The position numbers were made by a program, and so were the translations under genes. From contig CAJLYG010000051.1 of the NCBI GenBank assembly GCA_905210845.1, positions 1 to 16,458 of the forward strand: a stretch of DNA of 16,458 nucleotides. The letters run 5' to 3'. The stretch is from an uncultured Prevotella sp. Lineage in GTDB: Bacteria; Bacteroidota; Bacteroidia; Bacteroidales; Bacteroidaceae. This document shows, in pieces, positions 935 through 16,458 of the stretch. Each line of letters opens with the position of its first letter. Positions within the stretch are counted from its first letter, which is position 1. Under the pieces are notes generated by a model. The model ran no database searches. It saw only the letters and a program-made list of their open reading frames with translations, and was not told the origin of the DNA.

Positions 935-941
935 TAGGATA

Positions 942-2183: not shown

Positions 2184-2214
2184 CTCGGTAGTAATTTTAA
2201 TCAATTTCCATTTG

Positions 2215-2249: not shown

Positions 2250-2270
2250 AAGAACCACAAAAGATTGCAA

Positions 2271-2303: not shown

Positions 2304-2357
2304 GGAGAGGGCTGCGGCTTAGTTCTGAGACAAGGGCATCAGCAGGCAAAACGCAAG

Positions 2358-2457: not shown

Positions 2458-2491
2458 GGAAAACAGGGCGGTACCTGTCCAAGAAACGGCA

Positions 2492-3505
2492 TCAACTTTT
2501 CTCGGATGACTCCCTGATTTTCAGGATCATAGGGACGACTTCCCTATAGATCTTAGCATCTCCATTGATATGGCGCATTAAGATATCACAAGCCTTTTCC
2601 CCCTGTACGCACGCCTGGTCCATGATCGCTGAAAGCCTCGGGGTAACGAAGGCAGCATTGTCCCCATCCGTAAACCCGATGATGGCGACATCATTCGGGA
2701 TGCTCAATTTCATCTCCTTGATCGCGTCAAAGGCAGCATACGTAACGATATCGTTAAAGGCAAGGATGGCATCCGGGCGGTCGGGGCGTTTGAGCAACCC
2801 GATCGCAGCCTGGCGCGCCACCTCAAAGTCGATCTTATCGCAGATCACCAAGGTACGGTCGATCGGGATATGGCACTCACGAAGAGCCTCCAAGTAACCA
2901 TGCTTCCTACGCACGACCATGTCCAAGTGATTCGTCCCGCCCAGGAAAGCAATCCTCCTGCTGCCAGTCTTGATCAGATGGAGGGTCGCCTCATAGGCAG
3001 CCTCATCGCCATTGGCTACCACTTGGGAGAACTTATCGGGCAGACAGGTCCTGGCGAAGAAGACCAATGGGATGCCCAACTCATGCAGATACTCGAAATG
3101 ACGATAGTCGACCGTCTCTTGCGACAGGCAGGCAATGATGCCCTCGACGTGCATGGAGATGAAGTTATCCACCGCCTTCACTTCCCTTTCATAACTTTCA
3201 TGGGTGTTGACGCTAAACACCGAATAGCCCCTCCTTGACGCATAGTCCTCGGCACCAGCCAAGACCGCCGCAAAATAATGCGTGACTAAGTTGGGGACGA
3301 TAACCCCGATGATATGGGGAGCCTCTTTCCTCAGGCTCTGCGCGAAAGGATTCGGGCGATAGTTGAGTTCGCGGGCAAGGGCTTTCACCTTTTCCTTGAC
3401 CTCATCCCCTACCTCATGACTATTCCGCAAGGCACGGGATACCGTGGCGATGCTCACCCCAAGTTGATCGGCTAAATCCTTCAGAGATGTACGATGCTGC
3501 TTCAT
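2492..3505 (-). CDS. LacI-family transcriptional regulator
   Basis: A 337-residue sugar-responsive repressor of standard family length. The N-terminal helix-turn-helix and hinge (SLKDLADQLGVSIATVSRAL, then VKALARELNYRPNPFAQSL) bind DNA. The rest is a periplasmic-binding-protein-like ligand domain, with IIGVIVPNLVTHYFAAVLAG, the core segment RIAFLGG, and the typical DAILAFNDIVTYAAFDAIKE and DVAIIGFTDGD. The ligand is unknown; the GH31 gene downstream suggests a plant or starch oligosaccharide. The start at 3505 is the first ATG of the HTH and leaves a leader of about 15 nt behind the promoter at 3525-3555. A palindromic operator overlaps that promoter, so autoregulation is likely. No Shine-Dalgarno is seen, normal for Bacteroidota. 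Confidence 0.93.
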   Translation of the reverse strand: MKQHRTSLKDLADQLGVSIATVSRALRNSHEVGDEVKEKVKALARELNYRPNPFAQSLRKEAPHIIGVIVPNLVTHYFAAVLAGAEDYASRRGYSVFSVNTHESYEREVKAVDNFISMHVEGIIACLSQETVDYRHFEYLHELGIPLVFFARTCLPDKFSQVVANGDEAAYEATLHLIKTGSRRIAFLGGTNHLDMVVRRKHGYLEALRECHIPIDRTLVICDKIDFEVARQAAIGLLKRPDRPDAILAFNDIVTYAAFDAIKEMKLSIPNDVAIIGFTDGDNAAFVTPRLSAIMDQACVQGEKACDILMRHINGDAKIYREVVPMILKIRESSEKS

Positions 3506-3524
3506 AACCTACAATAATTGACTG

Positions 3525-3555
3525 CAAATATACTCAAATTATCCGGTTACGCAAA
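3525..3555 (-). promoter_or_regulatory. Bacteroidota-type promoter of the LacI gene
   Basis: The minus strand reads TTTG (3552-3555), 19 nt, TATATTTG (3525-3532). Both elements and the spacing match the TTTG / TAnnTTTG consensus exactly. It is the best promoter match in the window. The -33 element lies inside the palindrome at 3549-3564. Confidence 0.75.
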
Positions 3556-3564
3556 CGTTTACGT
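3549..3564. promoter_or_regulatory. Palindromic operator, probably for the LacI-family regulator
   Basis: ACGCAAACGTTTACGT is a near-perfect 16-bp palindrome (one mismatched pair) centred on a CG step, the hallmark of LacI-family operators. It covers the -33 element of the LacI promoter, so bound repressor should block RNA polymerase. No comparable site is seen before the GH31 gene. Confidence 0.65.
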
Positions 3565-3607
3565 GCAAAAATCCAAAGTTTTCCATGGAGCTTTGAATGA
3601 AATCACT

Positions 3608-3710
3608 TACCTTTGCGACATATTTATTAAGATGAGTAATGAATAGTTGATAATAAGTTAGTTAGCGATGAGTTAGGACTGTCGGGAGACCCTCCTAACT
3701 CTTTTCTTTT
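3608..3710 (+). ncRNA. Candidate small RNA with its own -7 element and intrinsic terminator
   Basis: On the plus strand TACCTTTG (3608-3615) matches the TAnnTTTG -7 element. About 55 nt further on begins a strong hairpin followed by a T tract (3670-3710). No reading frame of note lies between, and both flanking genes are on the other strand. The transcript would be about 90 nt and its end would overlap the last bases of the response-regulator gene in antisense. No good -33 element is found at the usual distance, so the promoter half is weak. Alternatively the hairpin merely stops readthrough. Confidence 0.4.
3670..3710 (+). terminator. Intrinsic terminator, plus strand
   Basis: Stem GAGTTAGGA (3670-3678) pairs perfectly with TCCTAACTC (3693-3701). 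Inside, a 3-bp GTC/GAC stem closes a GGGA (GNRA-type) tetraloop at 3684-3687. TTTTCTTTT follows at 3702-3710. On the minus strand no T tract follows the hairpin, so it serves plus-strand transcription and not the response-regulator gene that ends at 3709. Confidence 0.65.
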
Positions 3711-4347
3711 AAATATAGTACTCTGCTGAATCCACAAGTCCTGCCCGCAAGGCATATTTCGTAGCTTCATGCACGTTGTTCACCCCCAATTTGCGGAAGA
3801 TATTTTTCCGATGGGTGTTCACGGTATGGAAGCTTGAGAACCGTTTCTCCGCAATTTCCTTAGTCGTCATTCCCAAAGCGATGTCCTTGAGGATCTCCGT
3901 CTCTGTCTTGGTGAGGTTGACCTTCTCCTCCGTTGCATGGGCAGGAGCCAACAAAAGCTCTGTCATTCGCTGGCAGATATAACGTTGCCCACGGATCACG
4001 AACTGAATCGACTCGCGGATCTCAGGGAGAGGGGACTCCTTAAGTAAGATGCTGAAGGCTGAACTGCTGGCGATGAGCATGCGGACGAAGTCTGTACTCA
4101 GGTCCTCACTGAAGAGCAGCCACTGCACTTGTGGGAAACGCTGGTTCAGGATGAGCAGTTCTGCCGCGTCATTGATGTCGAACAAGGTATAGTCCATGAT
4201 CACGGCACAGGCAGGATACTCCCTCAATGCTTCCAACAGTCCAGCTTTGTCCGTCACCTGGCGATATTCCACGCCCTGGATACTGTCGAGGATGTACATC
4301 AGTCCAGCCCGTGTGATCCCCTGGTTATCAGCTAATAATATATTCAT
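3709..4347 (-). CDS. NarL/FixJ-type response regulator (REC + LuxR HTH)
   Basis: A 212-residue DNA-binding response regulator. The receiver domain spans about residues 1-120, with D7, the phospho-acceptor D52 (VIMDYTLFD), S80 at the switch position and the conserved K103 (LLKES). The second acidic-pocket residue is N8 in place of Asp/Glu. The LuxR helix-turn-helix is at about 145-205 (LTKTETEILKDIALGMTTKE, then IAEKRFSSFHTVNTHRKNIF). No sensor kinase is in the window, so the signal is unknown. ATG 4347 (MNILLADNQ) is preferred because receiver domains begin this way; an in-frame ATG at 4374 would add a lysine-rich MPKKKGKGR. It lies 39 bp after the thioesterase gene on the same strand and is probably co-transcribed with it. 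Confidence 0.9.
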   Translation of the reverse strand: MNILLADNQGITRAGLMYILDSIQGVEYRQVTDKAGLLEALREYPACAVIMDYTLFDINDAAELLILNQRFPQVQWLLFSEDLSTDFVRMLIASSSAFSILLKESPLPEIRESIQFVIRGQRYICQRMTELLLAPAHATEEKVNLTKTETEILKDIALGMTTKEIAEKRFSSFHTVNTHRKNIFRKLGVNNVHEATKYALRAGLVDSAEYYI

Positions 4348-4386
4348 TCTCCCTTTTCCTTTCTTCTTAGGCACGTCGAGGTACCG

Positions 4387-4872
4387 TCACATGGACAGTA
4401 ACTGCTCGTTCTCTACCTCACAACCCGTGAAGCCCATCTCCCTTGATCGTTCCGGATCCATGGCATAATAGACGACATCCGCCGTCACGCACGTCTCTCC
4501 CCGACTGTTCTCAATGGTAGCTGACATGAAAACATACTGTCGTTTCTGCTCCTTGATCGAGGCACGGACCGTCAACTGAGGGTCAGTGCTTCTCACCGGG
4601 TGCTTGTAATGGATGTCCAAGCGAGTGGTCATACCAGCTGCCTGCAACTTCCTCGTGACCACCCATCCACAAGTCTCATCAATCAGGGTAGCCAAGATAC
4701 CACCGTGCATCACCCCTTTCCACCCCTGGAAATGCTCCTGAGGTCGCCAAAAAGAGAGGATCTCATCACCATCCTCAAAGAATTCCATGTGCAAGCCGAT
4801 CGGATTATCCGGGCAGCACCCAAAGCAATCATACCCCTCTTGATGCAAGTAAGGATTCACTATTTTTCTCAT
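4387..4872 (-). CDS. PaaI-like hotdog-fold acyl-CoA thioesterase
   Basis: A 161-residue single hotdog-domain protein, likely hydrolysing acyl-CoA or aryl-CoA thioesters in the cytosol. The motif VMHGGILATLIDETCGWV (HGG at 56-58, D65, E66) is the active-site helix region of PaaI/DUF4442-type thioesterases. A cysteine-rich N-terminal motif, CFGCCPDNPIGLHMEF (C16, C19, C20), is typical of a PaaI subgroup and resembles a metal or structural site of uncertain role. Strands ending the fold follow (TTRLDIHYKHPVRS, ETCVTADVVYYAM). Start is ATG 4872; an upstream in-frame TTG at 4878 is less likely. First gene of a probable two-gene unit with the response regulator. Substrate unknown. Confidence 0.85.
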   Translation of the reverse strand: MRKIVNPYLHQEGYDCFGCCPDNPIGLHMEFFEDGDEILSFWRPQEHFQGWKGVMHGGILATLIDETCGWVVTRKLQAAGMTTRLDIHYKHPVRSTDPQLTVRASIKEQKRQYVFMSATIENSRGETCVTADVVYYAMDPERSREMGFTGCEVENEQLLSM

Positions 4873-4932
4873 TGTCAAACACTCTTAATCAAAATCCGCT
4901 TTCAGAGAATCCCTCATCGCGGCTTTCCCTTG

Positions 4933-4966
4933 CAAACTTACACAAAAATATCCAATCATGTGCAAA
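4933..4966 (-). promoter_or_regulatory. Bacteroidota-type promoter of the thioesterase/response-regulator unit
   Basis: The minus strand reads TTTG (4963-4966), 22 nt, TAAGTTTG (4933-4940). The -7 is a full consensus and the spacer is slightly long. The leader would be about 55 nt. Confidence 0.5.
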
Positions 4967-5110
4967 GACCGTCGCAAAATTATGTTTTCTTTTAAAGAAT
5001 CGTAAGATTCCATCTACATTTCCCTTCGTCCTCTAACCTGTCCAGGACAGAATCCAATGGGAAGGGGCATTATTTTAAATAAAAAAGAGGGAAGTTACGG
5101 AAAAAAGCAC

Positions 5111-5118
5111 TATCTTTG
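5111..5118 (+). promoter_or_regulatory. -7 promoter element of the DUF190 gene
   Basis: TATCTTTG on the plus strand matches TAnnTTTG, 28 nt before the ATG at 5147. No TTTG is present at the normal -33 distance, so only half of the promoter is recognisable. Confidence 0.5.
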
Positions 5119-5146
5119 TCAGACGATCGAAAAGAAAGGATTGACC

Positions 5147-5500
5147 ATGGAAATAAACAGCAAGGCTAAAAAGCTAAGGATCTATGTCAGCAATACAGAC
5201 AAATACAAGCACGAGCCGCTCTATCAGTATCTTGCCAGGACGGCAAGAGAGCTGGGCATGTCGGGCGCGACGATCTATAAAGGAGTGATGGGCTATGGGA
5301 CCAGCAGTGATTTCACCTCGCCGTCGCTTTGGGAGTTTGCCGAGAAAGTGCCTGTCACTGTGGAGATTATCGATGACGAGGCTCCGATCAACGACTACCT
5401 CCAGACCATCAAGCCCCTGTTGGATGAGCAGCCCAAGGGCTGTCTCATCACCTTACAGGATGTTGATGTCGTCTATATCAAGCACGGAACACCCTCTTAG
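5147..5500 (+). CDS. DUF190 (PII-like) domain protein
   Basis: A 117-residue cytosolic protein matching DUF190/COG1993. It has the characteristic start KKLRIYVSNTDKYKHEPLYQ, then LARTARELGMSGATIYKGVMGYG and a C-terminal strand DVDVVYIKHG. DUF190 proteins have a ferredoxin-like PII fold and are thought to be small-ligand or regulatory proteins, often beside the fluoride channel gene crcB; no crcB is seen here. The molecular role is not established. The ATG at 5147 is chosen because the family begins just before KKLRIY and a -7 element lies 28 nt upstream; the open frame extends back to 5057 without recognisable homology. Its stop (TAG 5498-5500) overlaps by three bases the stop of the convergent DUF5686 gene. 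Confidence 0.85.
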   Translation: MEINSKAKKLRIYVSNTDKYKHEPLYQYLARTARELGMSGATIYKGVMGYGTSSDFTSPSLWEFAEKVPVTVEIIDDEAPINDYLQTIKPLLDEQPKGCLITLQDVDVVYIKHGTPS

Positions 5501-8109
5501 AAGGTCATGCGGAGCATGGCACGGATGCCGTTCTTGTTGGGTGCTGAGGGCAAGTAATTGTAATTGCAGCGGTGCACCCATTCGATATGCAGGAACTTGA
5601 ATATGTTGTGGATGCCGAAGACCAGTTCGACATAGGGACGTTTAGGGTCCATCACCGAGCTGCCATCCGGGAATTGCATGAGGACCGGGTCATGAGCATT
5701 CTCCGAAAGGGTCGGGTTATTCTTGTCAGAAAGCTTTCCCCACAGGCACTTGATCCCAATAAACTCACGCCACTTCAACTTCTTCAGCAAGGGGATACGG
5801 TTGAAGATCTTCCCGTTCATATCCCAAGAAGCATCCAAGGACGCGTAACGGTCGTTGAGGAACTCCATGTTATTGATCAAGTTGAACGTCTCATCCTCTA
5901 TGATGTAAGAGAGGTTGGCAGCAGGCATGATCAGCAAGGGGAAGGGGACTTTGTTCCATTCGATCCCGCCTTTGAGGTAGATGTCCATCTTTCCCCAGCT
6001 GTTCAGCCAGAAGCGCTTATAGATATTCGCCTCGGTGAAGTTGTAATTATATTCACCTCCAAGGACACCTTTGACGCCCACCGTATGTGTAATCCCGAAG
6101 ACAGGGGCATCTAAGTTGATGGGAACCCTGCGCTGCTTAGTGTTGATATAAGTCCGGCCCGGTGCGATCTCGATCCCGAACATCGCCTCGGTGGTACGTA
6201 TCTTGCCATTATGGGTTAAGAATCCTGGTTCATAGTTAGACAAATGTGACATGATCTCCGCACGCTGCGGGTCAGGGTGAGCCAGCGACTGGAAGAACAA
6301 AGAGCCGGCAGCTTCGTTCTCTTCCGTTTTCAATGCCACCGTTGTCTTGAAGCCCCATTCCTCCTCACGCTCAAATTTCAGGGTCTGTCGGTTATAGAAC
6401 ATCATCTTGTCCACGGTTGTCCATTTGAAGGCCGTGAACATATTATCCTTATCGGTATGGATGAACTTGTCCGATGGAGCCATGATATCATACTCAGACG
6501 TGAAGGACAGGGTGCGCTTGGGAAACTCCCGGGGCAAGTAATCCTTCTTATTGAAGGAATAGGTCAGGTCGGCCTTATAGTAATTCTTGTCATTCTTCCA
6601 TCCCCTTGCATAATATCCTGAGGCAAACCAATGCTTGTTCAGGTTGGCGGTAGTCTGCGCCGTGATACGCGTACGCCATCCATCGATGAAGTTCTTGGTG
6701 ATCATCGTATTGACAGGTCCGATATCCACCTTACTCGGATGGTTCTCGTCGCCGGTCTCGACGAAGTTCTCGATCAGAGCCTTTGCCCCGAAGATAATAT
6801 ACTTGAAGCCTTTCAGCTGTTCAATCCGATGGATAAAGGCATCCATTGACGACTCGCTCTTCGTCAGTTCAACGGTTCGGTACTTATTCCAGAAAGCCTC
6901 ATCACGCATCTGGGCATCCGCCTCTCGTTTCTCCTTAGCCTTTCCCTTGAACAGTTTCTTGGGCAGTTCATCAAAGGCATAGTCGGTCAATCGTGTCGTC
7001 CTGACCACCAACACCTTCTGCAGGAACTTGGCAAGAGACATCTCGGCGATCATGTCATCGACGGTCAGTGCCCATTCCCCATCCGGTAACCGGGTATATT
7101 CCTGCTGGATCTGGAGATTATCCACGAAGTTCACGTCACTTCTCTTAGGAATCGTCAGGTTGCATCGCTTGACATGCAAGGTGGAGTCGGCCAAGATATA
7201 CAGTTCCCCACGGAATCCAAAATCCTGCTGGTTATTCGGAAGAAACTGCAAATGATAACAAAGATCCCTATCCACATAGACAGTGTCCTCAATATAATAT
7301 CGATAAAAATTGATAGCATCCTTTCCGATTGGACTGGTGAAAGGATATTGGAGCAGTCGCACCTGATCATCATAGATGTCAACGTCTGTGAAGACATCCT
7401 TTAAGGCAACCGTCGCGATATCACCGGTCTGGAACAACTGGTTGATACCCTGTGAATTTTGTCCGATGATGATATCCTTTTCCGACTTAGGGTCTTTGCG
7501 GTAGAGATGCTGCGTAACCGTCTCGTCGACTGTCAGCGGCAGGGTAAGCTTTTGGTTATAAGGACTCACCTCCACCTGGTCAAGCAGCCATTTCTTCTTG
7601 GCAAAGAAGCCACTGTCTAAGTCGGATGGCTTGAGGTCGTTCAGTGCAAAGGTAATCTTCTGATATTTGGTATATTGCAGATAAGGATGATTGGTCAGAT
7701 CCGTTTTCTTCTTGGCAGCGATGACACGTCTCATCAATTCAACGGCAGGGTTATTCTTTCGGGAATAACGCGCGCGTTTATGCCGGATGACCACCTCGGA
7801 CAATTGCTTTGTGTCCGGTTTCAACTTGATGTTCAGGACGTTCGGCGTATTCTCCTTGATCAGCACAGTCTGTGACTTATAGCCGACAGAACTGAACGTC
7901 AGGGACCATCCCTCGTGTCGCTCTATCTTGTATTGTCCCTGCGCATTGCCACTAACCGCGACATGATGGCCCTTATAGGCTGCGCTCGGATAGAACAAGG
8001 TATCACCGGTCTGTGCATCGGTGATAACACCTGTGATCTGAGCAGACGCGGAGACAGCAATCATCCACAGTACGGCAATGATCCCTACAATCTTTAACTT
8101 TTTCCTCAT
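5497..8109 (-). CDS. DUF5686 outer-membrane protein with N-terminal carboxypeptidase-regulatory-like domain
   Basis: An 870-residue exported protein. A Sec signal peptide (MRKKLKIVGIIAVLWMIAVSASAQ) is followed by a CarboxypepD_reg-like beta-sandwich at about residues 24-97 (ITGVITDAQTGDTLFYPSAA, SFSSVGYKSQTVLI-like strand). The DUF5686 region then begins (SEVVIRHKRARYSRKNNPAV, ELMRRVIAAK). The C-terminal half alternates aromatic and polar residues as in an outer-membrane beta-barrel, and the protein ends in phenylalanine (AMLRMTF), the usual barrel-assembly signal. The family is widespread in Bacteroidota and of unknown function; the layout resembles TonB-dependent-receptor relatives without a plug. 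It lies 52 bp after the HAD gene with no clear promoter between them, so it may be the last gene of the phosphotransferase operon. Confidence 0.87.
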   Translation of the reverse strand: MRKKLKIVGIIAVLWMIAVSASAQITGVITDAQTGDTLFYPSAAYKGHHVAVSGNAQGQYKIERHEGWSLTFSSVGYKSQTVLIKENTPNVLNIKLKPDTKQLSEVVIRHKRARYSRKNNPAVELMRRVIAAKKKTDLTNHPYLQYTKYQKITFALNDLKPSDLDSGFFAKKKWLLDQVEVSPYNQKLTLPLTVDETVTQHLYRKDPKSEKDIIIGQNSQGINQLFQTGDIATVALKDVFTDVDIYDDQVRLLQYPFTSPIGKDAINFYRYYIEDTVYVDRDLCYHLQFLPNNQQDFGFRGELYILADSTLHVKRCNLTIPKRSDVNFVDNLQIQQEYTRLPDGEWALTVDDMIAEMSLAKFLQKVLVVRTTRLTDYAFDELPKKLFKGKAKEKREADAQMRDEAFWNKYRTVELTKSESSMDAFIHRIEQLKGFKYIIFGAKALIENFVETGDENHPSKVDIGPVNTMITKNFIDGWRTRITAQTTANLNKHWFASGYYARGWKNDKNYYKADLTYSFNKKDYLPREFPKRTLSFTSEYDIMAPSDKFIHTDKDNMFTAFKWTTVDKMMFYNRQTLKFEREEEWGFKTTVALKTEENEAAGSLFFQSLAHPDPQRAEIMSHLSNYEPGFLTHNGKIRTTEAMFGIEIAPGRTYINTKQRRVPINLDAPVFGITHTVGVKGVLGGEYNYNFTEANIYKRFWLNSWGKMDIYLKGGIEWNKVPFPLLIMPAANLSYIIEDETFNLINNMEFLNDRYASLDASWDMNGKIFNRIPLLKKLKWREFIGIKCLWGKLSDKNNPTLSENAHDPVLMQFPDGSSVMDPKRPYVELVFGIHNIFKFLHIEWVHRCNYNYLPSAPNKNGIRAMLRMTF

Positions 8110-8161
8110 AAATGTGTTCTATTGATCCTGAATAGATCCCGTCTTGTCATGTAATGTTAGC

Positions 8162-8860
8162 TTAGAGAAGCTGCCCCAAGTCCGTAATCACCCGGTCGGG
8201 CACTGTCTCATCATACGACTGGTCTGTCCAGCCTTCCCCCTTGAACCAAACCGTCTTGCATCCCGCCTGCCGGGCTGGCTCTATATCCTTAAAGAAGCTA
8301 TCGCCGACGACGACGCATTCTTCTGGCTTCAGTCCCAAAGCCTCAACGCCCAAGGTGAAGATCTTAGGGTTCGGTTTCCGGATTCCTACCACAGCTGATT
8401 CTATCACGTCTTGGAACAAACCGTCCAACCCAAATTCCGACAATACAGTATGGATGTTCCCATAAAAGTTGCTGACCAATACCATCGGGTATTTCCCATG
8501 CAAGGTCTCAAGAACCTCCTTACTATGGGCGGTGATCTCCTTCACTTTCGCATACAGGTCGTCGAGGACCCGCTGCATTCCAGCCTTGAACGCAGCTTCG
8601 TCAGCATCCCATGCACCGACGGTACACAGGTGTTCCATCTCAATGCGGATCTTGGTCTGCAGGGTCTTGTAGAACGTATAGTCACTTTGGATGATCGGGG
8701 TCCTGCCCAAAGTCCGCTCTGCATAGACATAAGCTTCACGGAAAGCATCCTCGGAAACAGGTATCTGCTGGCGCTGGTACGCATGCCATAACATCTTTCC
8801 CCAATGGCAGCCATTGGTATCAAGGGTGCCACCATAATCAAATATATATCCTCTAATCAT
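8162..8860 (-). CDS. HAD-superfamily hydrolase with atypical motif I (DYGGT)
   Basis: A 232-residue Rossmannoid HAD protein. Motif I is FDYGGTLD with nucleophile D8. Residue 10, normally the acid/base aspartate of phosphatases, is glycine. Motif II is S130 (LVSNF), motif III K162 (GIRKPNPKIF) and motif IV GDSFFKD (186-192). A helical C1-type cap lies between residues 20 and 110. Family members dephosphorylate small metabolites; the missing second aspartate suggests altered chemistry or weak phosphatase activity. The start is ATG 8860, overlapping the TGA of the CDP-alcohol phosphatidyltransferase as ATGA (8857-8860), a strong sign of translational coupling. In this operon a role on a phosphorylated headgroup or product is plausible but unproven. 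Confidence 0.88.
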   Translation of the reverse strand: MIRGYIFDYGGTLDTNGCHWGKMLWHAYQRQQIPVSEDAFREAYVYAERTLGRTPIIQSDYTFYKTLQTKIRIEMEHLCTVGAWDADEAAFKAGMQRVLDDLYAKVKEITAHSKEVLETLHGKYPMVLVSNFYGNIHTVLSEFGLDGLFQDVIESAVVGIRKPNPKIFTLGVEALGLKPEECVVVGDSFFKDIEPARQAGCKTVWFKGEGWTDQSYDETVPDRVITDLGQLL

Positions 8861-9783
8861 GTTGCTTGGATCATTAAGTGAGCGCACAAGTGCTCGTGCC
8901 GCTTGTGCATATATACATAAAGAATATTCAAAACAATAATTTCAAAAAGCAAGTACACCCAAGGACAGTTCAACAGGCAGGTGACATAGATGACAATGGC
9001 ACGCACGTTGAAGGTCAGCCAGTTAGTATACTTCATCAAAGGACGGCTCCCTGCCAGGAAAGCCTGCCGCACCTGTTCTTTCTGTCCTGCATCCTGAAGT
9101 CCATTGTACCAAGGGAAGAATTTCTGAAAGCAAGGCGTCCGCCTCTCCTGGCTCCTGCAATAATTCGAGTAGGAAGAATAGAAAAGACGGCCGAACCACT
9201 CCTTTTTCGGCAAGCTCTCTAAGATCGCATGCTGCTGGGCGTAATTATCCAATTCGCTTCCCGCCTTACCCTTCAGGAAGAAGAGATGGATCTGACGATA
9301 GTAATCAGCGAGTGAGCTCTGAGGAGAATGACTCATCACCCCAGCGAGAATAGCCAAGATCCAGATCAAGAGACCCCATTTGATGTCTAATCCAGGTATG
9401 TTCTGGCCCATCAGTCGCACGGAAATGGCGACATAGATGCAAAAGAACCACACGTCCCCAGAAAATCCATCGAGCACCCGCCCTAACAAAGTCTTCTTCC
9501 CAGTGAGCCTTGCCATCTGCCCATCGGTAGAATCACAGAAATTAGCAAGCATCAACAGGAGGACGCCATAGAGATTATGGTATAGGTCGGTGAACGAGAA
9601 CATGTATCCAGCGGCACCCCCTAAGAAAAAGGAGAGGATCGTAATGACATTCGGGTGGATGTTCAGTCGGTCCCACAAAAGAGCGAAGACCAGTCCGATG
9701 GGACGTGTAAAATGAACGTCAAGCCATTCCTCCGTATCATTCGATTTCAATGAAGACTGTAATAAATTCTTAAATGTTGACAT
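8857..9783 (-). CDS. CDP-alcohol phosphatidyltransferase-family membrane protein
   Basis: A 308-residue integral inner-membrane enzyme that should displace CMP (or another NMP) from a CDP-activated alcohol or lipid using a hydroxyl acceptor. The signature is clear: D84, D87-G88, A91-R92, then eight residues to G101, and D105. The fourth aspartate is found at 110, not the expected 109 (DGFSGD). Hydrophobic helices lie at about 46-62, 70-84, 110-125, 136-150, 258-272 and 276-292. Between the fourth and fifth there is a charged cytosolic insert of about 95 residues (160-255), unusual in a family often near 200 residues. Start ATG 9783 is 23 bp after the ATP-grasp stop. An upstream frame extension to 9870 lies within the ATP-grasp gene and is rejected. 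Confidence 0.88.
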   Translation of the reverse strand: MSTFKNLLQSSLKSNDTEEWLDVHFTRPIGLVFALLWDRLNIHPNVITILSFFLGGAAGYMFSFTDLYHNLYGVLLLMLANFCDSTDGQMARLTGKKTLLGRVLDGFSGDVWFFCIYVAISVRLMGQNIPGLDIKWGLLIWILAILAGVMSHSPQSSLADYYRQIHLFFLKGKAGSELDNYAQQHAILESLPKKEWFGRLFYSSYSNYCRSQERRTPCFQKFFPWYNGLQDAGQKEQVRQAFLAGSRPLMKYTNWLTFNVRAIVIYVTCLLNCPWVYLLFEIIVLNILYVYMHKRHEHLCAHLMIQAT

Positions 9784-9806
9784 ATCTTTGGCACTATTGT
9801 GCAGTG

Positions 9807-10598
9807 TTATTTTTCGTTTAAATAGCGACTGACCAGGTCTGCGATGGCATCTGCCGCTTGCTCGCGGCACCTGCTGAAACTGGGCCAGTCATTAAAATCA
9901 ATCACATAAAAGTTCCCATCCTGATCGATGATAGCATCCCCACCATAGACATCGATTCCCGTCAGGCGAGCCACCTTGACCACTTCCTGGTGCAGTGCCT
10001 CCACGTCAAACGGATAATGGTGAGCCTGTCCGTTACGGCGCTCATCCCCGAATTTCGAGATGCCGTCATCATTTGGATAGTAATAGCGGAAGAAGCTGTC
10101 CCCTACCGCATACCATTTGACCAAGTCGCCTACCACATGAGCACTCACCACCTGATGAGTGATGCCACGTTCCCGGTAACGGGAGAGAGCCTCTCGGAGC
10201 TGTTGCTCGTCCTGGCAAAAGACCACATCATCCTTTCCTGTCGCCCATCCCCCATTCTTCAGCCAATAGCCATGGGTACCTTTCTCCGGTGGCATGGCAA
10301 CTTGATGCTTTCTCATCAAATCCTCCAACACGTAGCGAGGGCACACTGATTCCCCACGATTGACGACGACCTTCCCTTTCTTCTCTATTTGGGACAACCG
10401 TTCCAAGGTCTTCGGGAAACGCCCCATGGATAAATAGGCATCTGCCTCCGGGATCTTCAAAGCATCGTCAAATACCCTTTCATCCATCAACTGGCAATCT
10501 CCCAAGCGTTGCAAGACAGCCATGAGGATTGCCTTGTCCTTCCCTATGGAATGAGGCGAGAAGGTATCGTCACGTCGTATGGCCAGAACCTTACCCAT
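9807..10598 (-). CDS. ATP-grasp-fold protein, possibly a small-molecule kinase or ligase
   Basis: A 263-residue protein with a C-terminal ATP-grasp domain. Metal-binding residues are D221 (YGGDAII), D234 and N236 (VIDFNDWPSF). The loop/lysine region is near KNGGWATGKDD and a second substrate strand is DLVKWYAVGDSFFRYYYP. The DxNxxP ending is shared by inositol-phosphate kinases of the ITPK type and by RimK/D-Ala-D-Ala-type ligases, so either phosphorylation of a polyol or formation of an amide bond is possible. The N-terminal 90 residues (RRDDTFSPHSIGKDKAILMA...) are not recognised. ATG 10598 overlaps the end of the nucleotidyltransferase gene by 8 bp, showing tight coupling. The function is unassigned beyond the fold. 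Confidence 0.82.
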   Translation of the reverse strand: MGKVLAIRRDDTFSPHSIGKDKAILMAVLQRLGDCQLMDERVFDDALKIPEADAYLSMGRFPKTLERLSQIEKKGKVVVNRGESVCPRYVLEDLMRKHQVAMPPEKGTHGYWLKNGGWATGKDDVVFCQDEQQLREALSRYRERGITHQVVSAHVVGDLVKWYAVGDSFFRYYYPNDDGISKFGDERRNGQAHHYPFDVEALHQEVVKVARLTGIDVYGGDAIIDQDGNFYVIDFNDWPSFSRCREQAADAIADLVSRYLNEK

Positions 10599-11313
10599 GG
10601 ATGAATTCCTCTGCTTTTCGGATATCCGAGGCATGGTCGATGTCAAGCACCTTTGAGAAGGCAAAAGCTTTCAGCTTCCTACCGTCCCGAATCAATCCCC
10701 TCTGGAAATTACGCATTCTCGACTCACCCCTTTCCATGCAAGCATCCAAGGTAAGCAGTGCATTGGGGGCCAGACCATAGATGCCGCCCGAGATATAAGT
10801 ACAATGAGCGGTGTTCGTATCATAGAATCCAGTGACCTGCATGTGCGCATCCGTACCGACATACAGAGGTTTCTCATCGTCAACAAAATCCGTGACGCCC
10901 ATCATTCCATCCCATCCGTGGGACACAGCCTCCTGAAAAGAAGCCACATACTGAGAGAATTCATGCTCCCTGAAGATCGTGTCCACCGTGGTCAGCACGA
11001 ATGGAGTGCCCCCCAAGAGCCTGCTCAGCGCGAAGAAGCTGTGCATAGAACTGGGCGTACTCTGGACGATATATTTCAAAGGGACAGGGGTTCCATTCAA
11101 CCCTTCTTCCTGTATTCGTCGAAGATGCTGACTGACATACGGCGTGAGATCATTACAAATGACATCAACCTCATCGGCATGATTCTCCATAAAAATTCTA
11201 ATCAACCTATCAATCAGATGCTCTCCTTCGATTTTAACCAACGGCTTAGGGACCTGAATGCCTTCGGAAGCCAACCGGGATCCTTCCCCTGCCGCGATGA
11301 TCGCATACTTCAT
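10591..11313 (-). CDS. Sugar/polyol-phosphate nucleotidyltransferase (NTP_transferase family)
   Basis: A 240-residue enzyme of the GT-A-like nucleotidyltransferase superfamily. It has the nucleotide-binding loop AAGEGSRLA (residues 7-15), the PKPL motif (22-25), the metal-binding D111 (LTTVDTIF) and a second metal aspartate D226 in DIDHASDIRKAE. Such enzymes make NDP-sugars or CDP-polyols from NTP and a phosphorylated substrate. The CDP-alcohol phosphatidyltransferase two genes downstream argues for CTP as the nucleotide; inositol-1-phosphate, choline-phosphate or glycerol-phosphate are possible substrates and the sequence does not decide. It is the first gene of the operon. Start ATG 11313 fits the family (MKYAIIAAGEG). 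The stop lies within the ATP-grasp start (ATGGGTAA overlap). Confidence 0.87.
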   Translation of the reverse strand: MKYAIIAAGEGSRLASEGIQVPKPLVKIEGEHLIDRLIRIFMENHADEVDVICNDLTPYVSQHLRRIQEEGLNGTPVPLKYIVQSTPSSMHSFFALSRLLGGTPFVLTTVDTIFREHEFSQYVASFQEAVSHGWDGMMGVTDFVDDEKPLYVGTDAHMQVTGFYDTNTAHCTYISGGIYGLAPNALLTLDACMERGESRMRNFQRGLIRDGRKLKAFAFSKVLDIDHASDIRKAEEFIHG

Positions 11314-11338
11314 TTTCCTTAATAGAATTCAATAAGAA

Positions 11339-11374
11339 ATGTACCTTTATCGTAATTGGGCGGTAAAGGTACAT
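11339..11374. promoter_or_regulatory. 11-bp perfect inverted repeat at the operon promoter
   Basis: Arms ATGTACCTTTA (11339-11349) and TAAAGGTACAT (11364-11374) are perfect with a 14-bp spacer. The right arm holds the -7 element of the operon promoter on the minus strand, and the left arm would fall just past the start point. It could be a repressor operator straddling the start or a hairpin at the 5' end of the mRNA. Confidence 0.6.
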
Positions 11375-11394
11375 ATAATAGGTGAAAAAAGAAA
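11364..11394 (-). promoter_or_regulatory. Bacteroidota-type promoter of the nucleotidyltransferase operon
   Basis: The minus strand reads TTTC (11391-11394), 19 nt, TACCTTTA (11364-11371). This is one base off consensus in each element with ideal spacing. The leader before ATG 11313 would be about 45 nt. Confidence 0.5.
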
Positions 11395-11415
11395 ACTTTT
11401 TAGCAGAAATTTGTT

Positions 11416-12189
11416 TTATTGCTGAAGGTTTAACGCATCTACGCTAAAATCACCCGCCCCCTTCACGTCTTTGTCTAAGCGCTTAAGGTCGCCAGTCAAG
11501 GTAATATCCCCTGCGCCAAACAGTCGGCAATTTGCATAACCGCAATGCAGGAAGTCAACGGAAATGTCCCCTGCGCCAAACAGTTCCACTGTACTTTTAT
11601 CCACATTGACCAGTTTGGCATCCACATCACCTGAGCCAGCCAACCGGATGGAACTTTCCTGACATTCCAGGCGATCGAACTCAATATCCCCGCTCCCATT
11701 CATCTCGAACTGCGCCTGATCGCAGATCACGTCTGCCAAATGGATATCCCCATTACCATTCAGCGTAATGTGCAAGACATCCGTATCTAACCTGCGGAGC
11801 GACTCAAAATCGCCAGGACCCCGCATCACTACATCCGTCAAGTCAGGAGAAGAGACCAACAACCGCACGGAATGAGATGAATTGCGACTCAGATAGAAGC
11901 GAAGGTCCTTATCACGCACCATCAGCGTCCCGTCCTCCACGCTCAAGGCCCAATTATCCACCTGGTTCTTCGTTCCCTGCACCCGGACAGTGGTTGTGTT
12001 TCCTTGGACAAATTCCACATCACAGGCAGCACGTACATCGATCTTATGGAACTCCCTTGGATGGATCGTCCTTGTGATCTCAGCTTCTGATACCTGCCTG
12101 ATCGTGCTCCTGTCAAAATAAGTAAAGAACCCGGCAACAAATACTAAGACAACGAAGGCAACAACTAAAATAATCCCTAACTTCTTCAT
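11416..12189 (-). CDS. GIN-domain (DUF2807) auto-transporter-adhesin-head-like protein
   Basis: A 257-residue envelope protein with a single N-terminal hydrophobic segment (MKKLGIILVVAFVVLVFVAG), either an uncleaved anchor or a signal peptide without a clear cleavage site. The rest is a repetitive right-handed beta-solenoid of the putative auto-transporter adhesin head GIN type: six turns carry the motif [NAFK]Gx-GD[IVF] (NGNGDIHL, NGSGDIEF, AGSGDVDA, FGAGDISV, FGAGDITL, KGAGDFSV) at roughly 20-residue spacing. An 18-bp stretch encoding LFGAGD is repeated identically at 11507-11524 and 11567-11584, exactly 60 bp apart. Its function is unknown; family members are common in Bacteroidota and suspected envelope sensors or adhesins. 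It ends 102 bp before the nucleotidyltransferase gene on the same strand. Confidence 0.88.
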   Translation of the reverse strand: MKKLGIILVVAFVVLVFVAGFFTYFDRSTIRQVSEAEITRTIHPREFHKIDVRAACDVEFVQGNTTTVRVQGTKNQVDNWALSVEDGTLMVRDKDLRFYLSRNSSHSVRLLVSSPDLTDVVMRGPGDFESLRRLDTDVLHITLNGNGDIHLADVICDQAQFEMNGSGDIEFDRLECQESSIRLAGSGDVDAKLVNVDKSTVELFGAGDISVDFLHCGYANCRLFGAGDITLTGDLKRLDKDVKGAGDFSVDALNLQQ

Positions 12190-12413
12190 TTGCTATCTTT
12201 CTTGATTTATCCCTTTGACGAAAAGCTCCTGCAAAAAGTTGCATACAGAAAGAAATCCTGAAATATTTAACATTTTATCAGACACCTGTATATCAAATTC
12301 TATTCATCGTAATTTGTTATCTATTTATCACCTATTTAATAAATTAAAACATATTTTATTTCCTCAGGATGATAAAAGTTATTAAATTTGCATGTCAATT
12401 TGGAGAAAGAAAG
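12190..12413. other. AT-rich divergent intergenic region
   Basis: 224 bp between the divergent GIN-domain and activase genes, strongly AT-rich between about 12260 and 12360. It holds the activase promoter (12359-12390). No convincing TTTG/TAnnTTTG pair was found for the GIN-domain gene, and no ORF, RNA or repeat of note. Confidence 0.6.
12359..12390 (+). promoter_or_regulatory. Bacteroidota-type promoter of the giant activase gene
   Basis: TTTC (12359-12362), 20 nt, TAAATTTG (12383-12390). The -7 is a full match. The start point would be near 12397, leaving a leader of about 17 nt. No real Shine-Dalgarno pairs with the ATG at 12414. Confidence 0.55.
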
Positions 12414-15400
12414 ATGAACACAACCTGTTATCAAGTGGGATTGGACGTGGGATCCACAACGGCGAAGATCGTTGTCTTGGACGGAAACGGCAATATCGCT
12501 TATTCAAATTATGAACGCCACCATGCCCATGTCAAGGAATTGGTCAGTCAATATTTCAATAGCATCCAACAAAAACTTGGGGATATTGAATGCACGATTT
12601 GCGTGACCGGATCCGTAGGCATGTCAACTGCTGAGCAGCTTCATGTGGAGTTCGTACAGGAAGTGGTTGCCGCAACTGTTTTTGCGAAGGCACGTTATCC
12701 TCAGGCGAAGGCCCTGATCGATATTGGAGGCGAGGATGCAAAGGTCGTCTTCTTCAATGGAAAGAACATGGAACTGAGAATGAATGGCAACTGTGCTGGT
12801 GGAACGGGAGCCTTCATTGACCAAATGTCAGTCCTGATGGGTATCAACAATGACGAGATGAGTCAACGGGCCATGAATGCCACCCGCGTCTATCCGATGG
12901 CAGCCCGGTGCGGTGTCTTTGCCAAGACAGATGTCCAGAACCTGATGTCGAGGAACCTCCCCGAAGAAGACATCGCTGCCTCCATCTTCCACTCCATCGC
13001 CGTACAGACGGTGACGACCCTTTCCCATGGTTGTACCTTCGCTGCCCCCATCCTGCTCTGTGGTGGACCCTTGACATTCATGCCAGCCCTCAGGAAGGCA
13101 TTTGCGGACTACCTGCAGATGGACGGAGAAAAGGATTTCATCACCTCCTCCTTTAGCAACCTGATACCAGCCATCGGATGTGCCATTAGAAGCAAGGGAG
13201 ATGGCATCCGCCTTTCCCAATTGCAGGAGCGACTGCAACAAAAGGAGATCCATGCCTGGAAAAGCGTGCTCCAGCCCCTGTTCCTTTCGGAAGGCGATCA
13301 CGCCCAATGGCTCGCAGAGAAGCAGAGATATGCGACACCCATCCTTGGACTAAAAGCGGGCAAGGAAAAGGTGATTATCGGCATTGACAGTGGATCCACG
13401 ACAACAAAGATTATCGCAACCCGTCCTAACGGGGACATCCTCTATACCTATTATGCGCCCAACCTGGGCAATCCCATCGCTGCAGTCAAGAAGGGATTGC
13501 AAGAACTGAAAGGGCAAGCAGAGCAGGCGAACTGTGAGATTGAGATCGTAGGCAGCTGCTCTACAGGCTATGGCGAGGAACTGATCAAGGCTGCCTTCAA
13601 CTTAGATGCAGGCATCATCGAGACCATGGCCCATTACCATGCCGCATCACACCTAATGCCCGACGTGTCCTTTATCCTCGACATTGGCGGACAGGACATG
13701 AAAGCCATCTTCGTGGAGCATGGAGCCGTGGTCAGGATGGAGCTCAACGAAGCCTGCTCATCAGGATGTGGGACCTTCATCCAAACCTTTGCAAGGAACT
13801 TGGAATACGGCATAGCCGATTTTGCCAAGATGGCATGCACGGCACCTGCCCCTTGCGACCTCGGTACCCGATGCACCGTCTTCATGAACTCAAAAGTAAA
13901 ACAAGTGATGCGGGAAGGAGCCTCCGTTGCGGACATCTCCGCAGGACTGGCCTATTCCGTGATCAAGAATTGCTTGTACAAAGTCCTTAAGCTCCGTGGC
14001 AACGATGCCTTAGGGCTGCATATCGTCGTACAAGGAGGAACGATGAAAAACGACTCCGTCGTCCGTGCCTTCGAACTGCTCACCAAGACAAAGGTTGCCC
14101 GCAGCAATATTCCCGAGATGATGGGAGCCTATGACTGTGCCCTTTCCGCAGCCCACCACCAAACCGCAGCGCGGTCATTAGACGACCTGTTAGCAGGAGC
14201 GACCTATGAAACCCGCATGCTACAGTGCAAGGGCTGCGAGAACCAATGCTTAGTAAGCCGATACAAGTTCAAGGACCACAATTTCTATTCCGGGAACAAA
14301 TGCGAAAAGGTTTTCAACAACAAAGGAGGAAACCATGTCCCAGGCGAGAATATCTATGACATCAAATACAAGTTGCTCTTCGATCGCCCAACGATTGAAG
14401 GTGAAGGAAGCATCCATCGCCGCATCGGCATTCCCAGGGTATTGAACATGTATGAGGACTACCCCTTCTGGAACAAATTATTTACGACTTGTGGCTTTGA
14501 GGTCGTATTGAGCGGGAAATCGACCTTTGCTAAATACGAGAAAGCCGTAGGCAGCGTGATGAGCGACAACATCTGCTTCCCTGCGAAGTTAGTACACTCT
14601 CATATTCAGGAGTTGGACGGTGAAGATGTAGAGCGCATTTTCATGCCTTACGTGGTCTACGAGAAGAACGATGACGAACGCACCATCAACTCCTACAACT
14701 GTCCGATTGTCTCCGCCTACTCTGATGTGGTCAGGAGCTCCATGGACTTGTCAGTACCGTTAGATGCCCCAGTGATCAATTTCTCCAATCAGAAGCTCCT
14801 CAAGAAGCAAATCAGCCGTTACCTGAAGACCCTTGGTATCAGCAAGGACACTGTAGAGCGTGCCTTCAATGCAGCTTGGAAGGCACAAGAAGACTATTCC
14901 CACAAAATCAAGGAAGAAGCTGAAAGGATCTTAAAGGAAAGCCAGGACGCAGAAAGGATTACCATCCTGCTGGCAGGTCGCCCTTACCATACAGACCCCC
15001 TCATCCAGCATAAGCTAAGTGAGATGATTACCGCCTTAGGAGTTGATGTCATCAGTGATGACATCGTACGTGGCGACAACGAGACAGACAGCGGAGAGAC
15101 CTATCTCGTCAAGCAATGGGCATACATGAACAGGATCATCAAAGCAGGTCAATGGGCGGCTACCCAAGGAGAGAGGATCCATTTCATCCAGATGACATCA
15201 TTTGGTTGCGGTCCAGACTCCTTCATTCAAGATGAGATTAGGGATATCCTTCGCAGGCATGGGAAGCCGTTTACCTTATTAAAGATAGATGACGTGAGCA
15301 ATATCGGCTCCTTGAAACTGCGTGTCCGTTCCCTCATCGAAAGCCTTCATGATTACCAGTACCGACCGCATGCCATTCCCTTCGAGCAACCCAAGATCTA

Positions 15401-16458
15401 CCGGAAGGAAGACGTGCATCGCAAGATCCTGGCACCATTCATGACAGAATACCTCACCCCGATTCTCTCCCCATTGGTCTACCTTGCTGGCTATGACCTC
15501 CAAGTATTGCCGCCCAGTGATGAAGAGAGTGCGCAATTAGGACTGAAATACGCAAATAATGAGGTGTGCTATCCTGCCACCCTGATCGTAGGGGACATCG
15601 TGAAAGCTCTGCAATCTGGCAGATATGACAGGAAGGACATCGCCATAGCCATGACCCAGACCGGTGGCCAATGCCGTGCCACCAATTATGCGGGGCTGAT
15701 CAAGAGAGCAATGGTTGCCACCGGATTCAAGGATGTCCCCCTGATCACTATCGGTGTCACCTCACAAGGAGATGGTGAGAACGAGCAGGAAGGATTTGAC
15801 ATACCTTGGCTGAAATATGCCAGCATCATTGTCACATCCCTTTTGTATTGCGATACGATTTCTAAGATGTATCATGCTGCTGTCATTAGAGAGACCGCAC
15901 CTGGATTGGCAGCTGCCTTACGGGATAAATACCTCAAAGCTGCCGATCACCGTATCCGCAGGAATGACACAAGTGGAATGATGGAATTGATAGAAGATGC
16001 AGCGAAAGAATTTGATGCCATTGTCACCGACAAGGATGTGCCCGCTGTCGGGATCGTCGGTGAGATCTTCCTGAAGTTCAACCCCTTTGCACATCAATAT
16101 CTCGAAAAGAATATCATCAGCAAAGGCATAGAGATTATTCCTCCGCTTATATCTCCGTTCTTCCTCCAGGAATTCGTGAATGTGATTGCACAAAAGCACT
16201 TAGGGCTCTCTTGCTCGAAGACTCCTGACTGGATTGTCAAAGGACTTTATGGACTTATCAACCGGCGCATGAAGAAAGTTAACAAGGTAGCGGGATCATT
16301 CCGCTATTTCCGCCCCTTCACCAACATTTTCGATGATGCGAAAGCTGTTGAGAAAAACCATGTCGTATCCATGGCAGCGCAATTTGGAGAAGGTTGGTTA
16401 CTTCCTGCCGACATCATCTCTTTAGTAAGGAGTGGGGTCTATAACATTGTTTCCCTAC
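12414..16458 (+). CDS. Giant acyl-CoA dehydratase activase-related protein (BcrAD/BadFG x2 + DUF2229 + dehydratase-like), 3' end cut by window
   Basis: An open frame of 1348 codons without a stop to the window edge; relatives are about 1400-1500 residues, so little is missing. Residues 7-265 form an ASKHA ATPase module (GLDVGSTTAKIVVLD, DIGGEDAKV, NGNCAGGTGAF, CGGP). Residues 322-575 form a second (GIDSGSTTTKII, DIGGQDMKAI). C127 and C166 fall at the numbers known for the [4Fe-4S] ligands of Acidaminococcus HgdC. The second module repeats the pair as C448 and C487, with the same 39-residue spacing. Then come a cysteine cluster C605-x2-C608-x3-C612, a DUF2229 region (IPRVLNMYEDYPFWNKLF; C721 in ICFPAK) and a C-terminal HgdB-related part with C932, C1052 and C1087. 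By homology it is an ATP-driven electron-transfer or reductase system; its substrate is unknown. No separate dehydratase genes are visible. Confidence 0.9.
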   Translation, partial: MNTTCYQVGLDVGSTTAKIVVLDGNGNIAYSNYERHHAHVKELVSQYFNSIQQKLGDIECTICVTGSVGMSTAEQLHVEFVQEVVAATVFAKARYPQAKALIDIGGEDAKVVFFNGKNMELRMNGNCAGGTGAFIDQMSVLMGINNDEMSQRAMNATRVYPMAARCGVFAKTDVQNLMSRNLPEEDIAASIFHSIAVQTVTTLSHGCTFAAPILLCGGPLTFMPALRKAFADYLQMDGEKDFITSSFSNLIPAIGCAIRSKGDGIRLSQLQERLQQKEIHAWKSVLQPLFLSEGDHAQWLAEKQRYATPILGLKAGKEKVIIGIDSGSTTTKIIATRPNGDILYTYYAPNLGNPIAAVKKGLQELKGQAEQANCEIEIVGSCSTGYGEELIKAAFNLDAGIIETMAHYHAASHLMPDVSFILDIGGQDMKAIFVEHGAVVRMELNEACSSGCGTFIQTFARNLEYGIADFAKMACTAPAPCDLGTRCTVFMNSKVKQVMREGASVADISAGLAYSVIKNCLYKVLKLRGNDALGLHIVVQGGTMKNDSVVRAFELLTKTKVARSNIPEMMGAYDCALSAAHHQTAARSLDDLLAGATYETRMLQCKGCENQCLVSRYKFKDHNFYSGNKCEKVFNNKGGNHVPGENIYDIKYKLLFDRPTIEGEGSIHRRIGIPRVLNMYEDYPFWNKLFTTCGFEVVLSGKSTFAKYEKAVGSVMSDNICFPAKLVHSHIQELDGEDVERIFMPYVVYEKNDDERTINSYNCPIVSAYSDVVRSSMDLSVPLDAPVINFSNQKLLKKQISRYLKTLGISKDTVERAFNAAWKAQEDYSHKIKEEAERILKESQDAERITILLAGRPYHTDPLIQHKLSEMITALGVDVISDDIVRGDNETDSGETYLVKQWAYMNRIIKAGQWAATQGERIHFIQMTSFGCGPDSFIQDEIRDILRRHGKPFTLLKIDDVSNIGSLKLRVRSLIESLHDYQYRPHAIPFEQPKIYRKEDVHRKILAPFMTEYLTPILSPLVYLAGYDLQVLPPSDEESAQLGLKYANNEVCYPATLIVGDIVKALQSGRYDRKDIAIAMTQTGGQCRATNYAGLIKRAMVATGFKDVPLITIGVTSQGDGENEQEGFDIPWLKYASIIVTSLLYCDTISKMYHAAVIRETAPGLAAALRDKYLKAADHRIRRNDTSGMMELIEDAAKEFDAIVTDKDVPAVGIVGEIFLKFNPFAHQYLEKNIISKGIEIIPPLISPFFLQEFVNVIAQKHLGLSCSKTPDWIVKGLYGLINRRMKKVNKVAGSFRYFRPFTNIFDDAKAVEKNHVVSMAAQFGEGWLLPADIISLVRSGVYNIVSL

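Follow-up and report, generated by a model that had tools for sequence, protein, structure and literature searches.

An operon of an uncultured Prevotella as a probable MIPS-less variant of a predicted inositol-lipid cluster, with an ATP-grasp enzyme as a steady member

What do four closely packed genes of an uncultured Prevotella sp. make, and what is the ATP-grasp enzyme among them for? The genes, encoding a nucleotidyltransferase (NTP transferase), an ATP-grasp enzyme, a CDP-alcohol phosphotransferase (CDP-alcohol enzyme) and a HAD family hydrolase, lie on contig CAJLYG010000051.1 of assembly GCA_905210845.1, of which we analysed positions 1 to 16,458, hereafter the window. A preliminary description had proposed a CDP-polyol type pathway for an unknown headgroup. 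Judged by domains, gene order and distribution in Prevotella, the operon is very probably a variant, without the inositol-phosphate synthase MIPS, of the alternative inositol-lipid cluster predicted by Heaver et al. (2022, PMC9246714; here and below, passages of its main text), whose genes BVU_RS13095, BVU_RS13105 and BVU_RS13115 are known to us by description. Four points go beyond the published account: the steady ATP-grasp, the dispensable MIPS, the presence of the ATP-grasp in clusters of the PIP synthase type and the absence of the fourth aspartate from the CDP-alcohol enzyme.

The alternative cluster was described in B. vulgatus and Prevotella as an NTP transferase, a CDP-alcohol phosphatidyltransferase and a HAD protein, with CDP-inositol as proposed intermediate and a function that is a prediction; it is mostly near MIPS, with exceptions such as P. 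copri, and the cluster survey went outward from MIPS (PMC9246714). Phosphoinositol dihydroceramide (DHC-PI) is made by B. vulgatus and P. veroralis, both without genes of the BT type (PMC9246714), and P. copri produces DHC-PI as well. Passages of a 2023 review restate the cluster as an in silico prediction, with one route or the other in use (PMC10191378). The window operon shares with it the linkage of the three genes, the CDP-inositol logic, the carboxypeptidase-regulatory-like neighbour, which PMC9246714 places near both cluster types, and the fusion of CDP-alcohol enzyme and HAD, which occurs among the relatives studied here. It differs in that the main text gives the alternative cluster no ATP-grasp and usually a nearby MIPS, whereas no MIPS is among the window proteins scanned. 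The term "ATP-grasp" has 0 occurrences in that main text, where the gene might still stand unnamed in one of the figures, and we did not find the role proposed here in print in the same main text, in the passages of PMC10191378 or in literature listings, a scope outside which lay preprints and most subscription papers.

The BT_1522-1526 cluster (PIP synthase, PgpA-type PIP phosphatase, AUR1-type synthase and MIPS) serves the same purpose, inositol lipids, and similar clusters in one family include ATP-grasp relatives; however, the scan of the window proteins revealed none of its genes, and its route uses CDP-diacylglycerol as donor, whereas CDP-inositol is the presumed donor for the window operon. 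In thermophiles the IPCT/DIPPS enzymes likewise combine a cytidylyltransferase and a CDP-alcohol enzyme, as does the synthesis of ether inositol lipids via CDP-inositol (both cited in PMC9246714 and PMC10191378), but in the window the genes are separate, with the ATP-grasp between them, the identity is low and the presumed acceptor is a lipid. CpgD of Caulobacter (PMC12275187) is, like the candidate here, an IMPCT-like cytidylyltransferase, in its case for a ceramide headgroup, with phosphoglycerate as substrate instead; "ATP-grasp" and "CDP-alcohol" are absent from the text of that paper.

The four genes (Table 1) overlap or nearly touch, as the preliminary description had said, and the coordinates bear this out, all on the minus strand: the junctions are an 8-bp overlap (NTP transferase/ATP-grasp), a 23-bp gap (ATP-grasp/CDP-alcohol enzyme) and an ATGA overlap (CDP-alcohol enzyme/HAD). 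All four frames are open through to the stop codon. The longest open reading frames of the ATP-grasp, the CDP-alcohol enzyme and the HAD begin farther upstream, at GTG or TTG, and the internal ATGs are favoured by the relatives. Three of the products matched Pfam above cut-off, with E-values of 1.6e-11 (NTP_transferase), 4.9e-10 (CDP-OH_P_transf) and 9.3e-20 (HAD Hydrolase). As relatives we considered 80 loci of Prevotellaceae, located via the ATP-grasp and kept out of 588 confirmed. The nearest one to the window, locus L001 of an uncultured Prevotella (RUG143), has an ATP-grasp 87% identical, and over 1027 aligned columns of the four operon proteins the identity is 93%. On the 81 stretches (80 relatives plus the window) the NTP transferase family was present in 78, the CDP-alcohol enzyme in 77 and the HAD in 78, and in 68 of the 80 relatives NTP transferase, ATP-grasp and CDP-alcohol enzyme were consecutive within 300 nt, with the ATP-grasp directly in the middle. 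Relatives lacking the linked genes, which the preliminary description had regarded as damaging to its proposal, are hence not the rule: the neighbourhood is conserved.

A MIPS gene was found on 30 of the 80 relatives' stretches, one representative being confirmed by Pfam. Given the gene content, these MIPS neighbours and the prediction in PMC9246714, the term "unknown headgroup" was too cautious, since inositol is indicated. For the same reasons the CDP-polyol logic is plausible with inositol, although the idea was already in print; in the same way, the system is uncharacterised biochemically, but the cluster as such had already been predicted (PMC9246714).

The ATP-grasp is a steady member of the cluster also when the search starts from the CDP-alcohol enzyme, which is the fairer test. 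In an order-wide sample, 295 Bacteroidales genomes were searched with the CDP-alcohol enzyme and 45 matched; these gave 50 stretches, 20 of them hand-picked as second or odd copies and some covering one place twice. NTP transferase, ATP-grasp and CDP-alcohol enzyme were together on 33 stretches, ATP-grasp and CDP-alcohol enzyme on two at a cut edge (in one of which the NTP transferase gene sits just past the cut), and the CDP-alcohol enzyme alone on 15, while an NTP transferase without the ATP-grasp was present on 0 of the 50. A profile search for the ATP-grasp matched 39 of the 295 genomes, 38 of them among the 45 with the CDP-alcohol enzyme, seven of which lacked the ATP-grasp. The genes are also fused in single frames: NTP transferase and ATP-grasp at five loci (L063, L072, L140, L182, L184), NTP transferase, ATP-grasp and CDP-alcohol enzyme in an 820 aa protein (L180), ATP-grasp and HAD (L059), and CDP-alcohol enzyme and HAD in three genomes (L058, L075, L077).

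Other surroundings of CDP-alcohol enzymes were also observed. Relatives without the ATP-grasp (L168 7912-11992, L171 8883-11820, L183 8150-12204) lie beside CTP_transf_like, short-chain dehydrogenase and Acyltransf_2 genes (Pfam on the L168 proteins), with a flippase-like gene too in L168 and L183, and we read these loci as a separate Kennedy-type headgroup pathway. The nearest relative of the window has a second CDP-alcohol paralogue adjoining DUF5686 (L165 5666-10313, L167 9169-12766); the hotdog-like and oxidoreductase-like genes near it, as judged by sequence starts, could belong to a cluster for a pigment or an aryl polyene. In L174 (2787-19487; also L175, L176) the alternative cluster adjoins an oxoamine-synthase-like gene (Aminotran_1_2 by Pfam), which by its motif we take to be serine palmitoyltransferase-like. 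The same locus holds a second set of an aminotransferase, an NTP transferase and a CDP-alcohol enzyme whose fourth Asp is canonical; this set may serve a route to ethanolamine-phosphate ceramide.

The sole one of the 39 ATP-grasp genomes with no match to the CDP-alcohol enzyme was G219, in whose family the ATP-grasp occurs in 185 of 198 genomes. We read 21 stretches of this family (20 hand-picked, plus L199). Eight hybrid stretches (L234, L236, L237, L239, L241, L243, L244, L247) hold an NTP transferase, the ATP-grasp, a PIP synthase, an AUR1-like PAP2 protein and a CDP-alcohol enzyme of the window type; a GtrA-like gene is also there, and in many cases one of PgpA size (PgpA was confirmed in L234 and L251). 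Partial mixtures are present in L238, L246, L248 and L251, pure alternative clusters in L249, L250, L252 and L253, and ATP-grasp, GtrA-like gene and MIPS in L240. In the remaining stretches (L199, L235, L242, L245) the ATP-grasp stands with a PIP synthase and an AUR1-like gene, without the NTP transferase or the alternative CDP-alcohol enzyme. In the genomes behind them (G219, G483, G410, G396) an NTP transferase is absent at 1e-10, as is a full CDP-alcohol enzyme of the window type, G396 having a 26.7-bit partial match, and MIPS is present in all four. These genomes led us to reject the ATP-grasp as an exclusive partner of the NTP transferase, and since it occurs in PIP synthase clusters without the NTP transferase or the CDP-alcohol enzyme, its job seems to follow inositol rather than the CDP-inositol step. 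As an observation in its own right, the hybrid operons hold, next to each other, genes of the two published routes to inositol lipids, though these are described as alternatives.

Genome-wide, MIPS (PF07994) was found in 60 of the 80 relatives (3 of 7, 36 of 50 and 21 of 23 taken together). A second MIPS family, PF01658, which also catches the actinobacterial-type MIPS (the control C. glutamicum was detected by PF01658 only), was found in 0 of the 20 genomes already negative for PF07994, so that a blind spot of one family model was rejected as cause of the absence. The genome of the closest relative of the window, G001, has no match to either family. All 20 MIPS-less genomes keep the NTP transferase, the ATP-grasp, the CDP-alcohol enzyme and the HAD on the stretch, and nine of them are not titled as metagenome-assembled genomes (MAGs) or uncultured, including Hallella seregens, Hoylesella loescheii, H. 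enoeca, H. timonensis and Segatella baroniae. MIPS absence is clustered on a tree built from 77 of the 81 rows, with 10 changes against a shuffled mean of 17.7 and 0 of 500 shuffles as low, and two groups are entirely MIPS-less, with six members (SH-aLRT 79) and four members (SH-aLRT 95). Random assembly loss does not fit this clustering, though single absences in MAGs may still be gaps. Within the order-wide sample, 5 of the 39 ATP-grasp genomes were negative for both MIPS families.

Two possible compensations for the missing MIPS were also considered and rejected: the phytase-like PF00328 made no difference as a source (18 of 20 MIPS-less genomes against 24 of 30, the 30 being part of the 60 MIPS-bearing ones), and no recurrent replacement gene was found at the MIPS position in ten gene lists of MIPS-lacking loci. 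At the MIPS position of L036, from a strain without MIPS, the other strand holds a PIP-synthase-like CDP-alcohol gene (PF01066; 13265-13915, minus), between the HAD and DUF5686 genes. In one relative (L166 8696-9904) an MFS_1 transporter gene, a candidate inositol importer, abuts the HAD gene of the cluster, with MIPS elsewhere in that genome.

The CDP-alcohol enzyme matched PF01066 with 40.4 bits (cut-off 22); its best PDB match was AF2299 (E 5e-07) and its best NCBIfam match the archaetidylinositol phosphate synthase, at 45.7 bits against a cut-off of 180. The preliminary description would have abandoned its proposal had this protein grouped with PgsA or PssA. We rejected a housekeeping PssA identity, the pssA model giving 23.1 bits against a cut-off of 107, and no PgsA model is listed among the matches. 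Among the best 120 of 3697 matches, 118 relatives were 68-74% identical, and the names shown are Prevotella. Eight residues of the CDP-alcohol signature have been described as absolutely conserved. The fourth Asp among them is the probable base, and its replacement by Asn nearly abolishes activity in a PIP synthase (passages of PMC4634129). The window signature, DSTDGQMAR..GRVLDGFSGD, has Gly at the position of the fourth Asp; the part D1xxD2GxxAR...GxxxD3 is kept in the window and in 133 of 133 distinct relatives, all with the Arg, so the other seven signature residues are intact. We considered sequences as distinct by the 45 residues from the motif start, leaving out 8 rows cut at stretch ends before the motif. 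In these 133 sequences the fourth position was G in 120, S in 12, E in 1 and D in 0, and the residue after it D in 115, N in 10, E in 5 and another in 3. As controls, 15 of 15 PIP-synthase-type proteins of the neighbouring family and 6 of 6 distant paralogues were canonical at the fourth Asp. PMC9246714 reports a search with the full motif, yet the fourth Asp is absent from the relatives here. The base may have shifted to the next residue and then disappeared from some members, or this family may use a different one. With the fourth Asp absent, the profile assigns the protein to the superfamily and does not assure the reaction of the class.

The NTP transferase has the NTP_transferase fold and the active-site R, K and D, an equivalence by position, with many other nucleotidyltransferases scoring alike. 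Its profile matches IMPCT (4JD0) over nearly the full length (E 2.5e-06, identity 17-18%), and in the fold comparison IMPCT (24.8) was tied with PntC, GlmU and others, so the substrate is not fixed by the fold. In the HAD, motif I is DYGGT, with Gly in place of the acid/base Asp (DYG instead of DxD); D8 and G10 are invariant in 29 of 29 aligned sequences, as are K162, D187 and D192, with S130 in at least 90%. The HAD has been suggested as the phosphoinositol-dihydroceramide synthase (PMC9246714), and the missing acid/base Asp speaks neither for nor against this role.

At 1e-3 neither Pfam nor NCBIfam gives a match for the window ATP-grasp, which was recognised through its profile and predicted fold. 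The preliminary description had seen a resemblance to ITPK in its C-terminal IDFNDWP. A weak sequence signal of this kind exists: PF05770 (ITPK) matches 28 of 98 members of the ATP-grasp family at E<=1 (best E 0.002), and the PDB profile matches include ITPK4/ITPK1 at E 0.036-0.11, unrelated chains scoring alike. The window protein itself differs from ITPK and PPIP5K, the eukaryotic ATP-grasp inositol phosphate kinases, in having no PF05770 match, and its fold is as much or more RimK-like. Across 37 ATP-grasps compared, in which the MIPS-lacking kin were limited to L001, L004 and L019 plus the window, the invariant residues were R9, S14, P15, M58, R60, N80, W112, K114, D124, H154, G157, K161, Y163, G219, N236, D237 and P239. 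The loop at 177-194 is shortened or altered in PIP synthase clusters without the NTP transferase, in many mixed clusters and, among the alternative clusters, at least in L175. We give an even chance to the ATP-grasp being an inositol or inositol-phosphate kinase, with free inositol as the likelier substrate.

Some results fit a ligase at least as well. In the window protein PF05770 has no match at E<=1, and the best Pfam match is RimK (E 0.011, below cut-off); the best matches of the predicted fold are the ligases RimK, LysX and ArgX, and with scores of 19.5 for RimK, 17.4 for PPIP5K2 and 17.3 for ITPK the comparison does not separate kinase from ligase, the modelled fold fitting ligases at least as well. 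In favour of the kinase, inositol in the medium fails to rescue B. thetaiotaomicron, for whose cluster no ATP-grasp is described and BT_1524 is called hypothetical (PMC9246714), though poor inositol uptake would explain this equally. The ATP-grasp may instead be a ligase that attaches a carboxylate, for instance an amino acid, either to a lipid precursor or to the headgroup inositol, to give a decorated inositol lipid. Most ATP-grasp enzymes are ligases, and its occurrence with both lipid routes would also suit this role. We consider it unlikely: the products reported in organisms with the cluster are phosphoinositol lipids (in the passages cited above), the C-terminal IDFNDWPSF and the PF05770 matches lean weakly to inositol kinases, and MIPS loss would be left unexplained. 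As a candidate role, a salvage inositol kinase fits the ATP-grasp best.

Around the observed genes, linkage, fusions, MIPS absences and ATP-grasp contexts, we infer every catalytic step as follows. The ATP-grasp would phosphorylate inositol, chiefly scavenged, with ATP; the NTP transferase would convert the inositol phosphate and CTP to CDP-inositol; the membrane CDP-alcohol enzyme would transfer phosphoinositol to diacylglycerol or dihydroceramide with release of CMP; and the HAD would remove a phosphate at or just after the transfer step, with inositol phosphate, the phosphorylated lipid and CMP as candidate substrates. The product would be phosphatidylinositol and/or phosphoinositol dihydroceramide. 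MIPS would be dispensable because the ATP-grasp supplies inositol phosphate, and the same enzyme could also feed the PIP synthase route. That the operon makes inositol phospholipids by this CDP-inositol route, with the ATP-grasp as salvage kinase, falls a little short of an even chance. The wider proposal, that the ATP-grasp founds a bacterial inositol kinase family with which host-associated Bacteroidales would serve both lipid routes from scavenged inositol, with MIPS, missing from several separate lineages, dispensable and a partner CDP-alcohol enzyme working without the fourth-aspartate base, is tentative and in its entirety doubtful.

Two further alternatives appear to us improbable, to a similar degree. 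In the one, the ATP-grasp would add a second phosphate to an inositol monophosphate (e.g. to Ins-3-P, which MIPS produces, at its position 1), the NTP transferase would activate that position, the CDP-alcohol enzyme would form a lipid of the phosphatidylinositol-phosphate type and the HAD would remove the leftover phosphate. All four enzymes would then have a place in one order, the presence of ATP-grasp and HAD alongside MIPS would be explained, and both the HAD/CDP-alcohol enzyme fusions and the weak ITPK-like signal would agree; but all 20 MIPS-less genomes retain HAD and ATP-grasp, the ATP-grasp persists in the four genomes without an NTP transferase, and no PIP intermediate is proposed in the passages of PMC9246714. 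In the other, the MIPS-lacking genomes, including the kin of the window, would use the same enzyme set for another phosphorylated alcohol, as the 20 of 80 genomes without MIPS might suggest, and as CpgD, which has IMPCT as best fold match and uses phosphoglycerate (PMC12275187), illustrates. However, lineages with and without MIPS are intermingled on the tree, with its 10 changes, and sixteen or more core residues are identical in 37 of 37 ATP-grasps, of which only L001, L004, L019 and the window represent MIPS-lacking kin. Least probable is a bacterial phosphoinositide kinase acting on the finished lipid, which the presence of the ATP-grasp with both inositol-lipid routes and a fold compatible with inositol kinases would allow, but which would leave the MIPS-lacking genomes unexplained and has no such lipid reported in the literature passages covered.

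Regarding the neighbourhood, the DUF5686/CarbopepD_reg_2 family was present on 69 of the 81 stretches, so it is larger than the preliminary description had it, and the DUF2807 family on 29 of the 81 (Table 1).

Table 1. Features of the window with their coordinates and candidate roles
Feature	Coordinates	Strand	Remarks
NTP transferase (PF00483)	11313-10591	minus	ATG start, TAA stop, 240 aa; candidate CTP:inositol-1-phosphate cytidylyltransferase
ATP-grasp enzyme	10598-9807	minus	ATG start, TAA stop, 263 aa; candidate inositol(-phosphate) kinase
CDP-alcohol phosphotransferase (PF01066)	9783-8857	minus	ATG start, TGA stop, 308 aa; candidate CDP-inositol:lipid phosphoinositol transferase
HAD family IA hydrolase	8860-8162	minus	ATG start, TAA stop, 232 aa; Pfam and NCBIfam
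DUF5686/CarbopepD_reg_2 protein	8109-5497	minus	Pfam; 3' of the HAD gene, conserved neighbour
DUF2807 protein	11416-12189	minus	Pfam and clustering; upstream of the operon, less constant neighbour
GH31-type gene	1053-2270	minus	Pfam finds N-terminal mutarotase-like and PA14 only, no catalytic domain; looks truncated
BadF/BcrA-type CoA-enzyme activase with DUF2229	12369-16457	plus	Very large; extends past the window end

Inositol lipids occur widely among gut Bacteroidetes, and in B. thetaiotaomicron the loss of inositol lipids or of MIPS affects the capsule, resistance to antimicrobial peptides and colonisation (PMC9246714). In every complete case here the NTP transferase came with a gene that goes unmentioned in the published alternative pathway. 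Should the ATP-grasp prove to be an inositol kinase, inositol from the diet or the host would be within reach of these bacteria, and inositol-lipid producers could not safely be recognised by MIPS. The missing fourth aspartate, in turn, allows the accepted mechanism of a large family of membrane enzymes to be tested directly in the CDP-alcohol enzyme.

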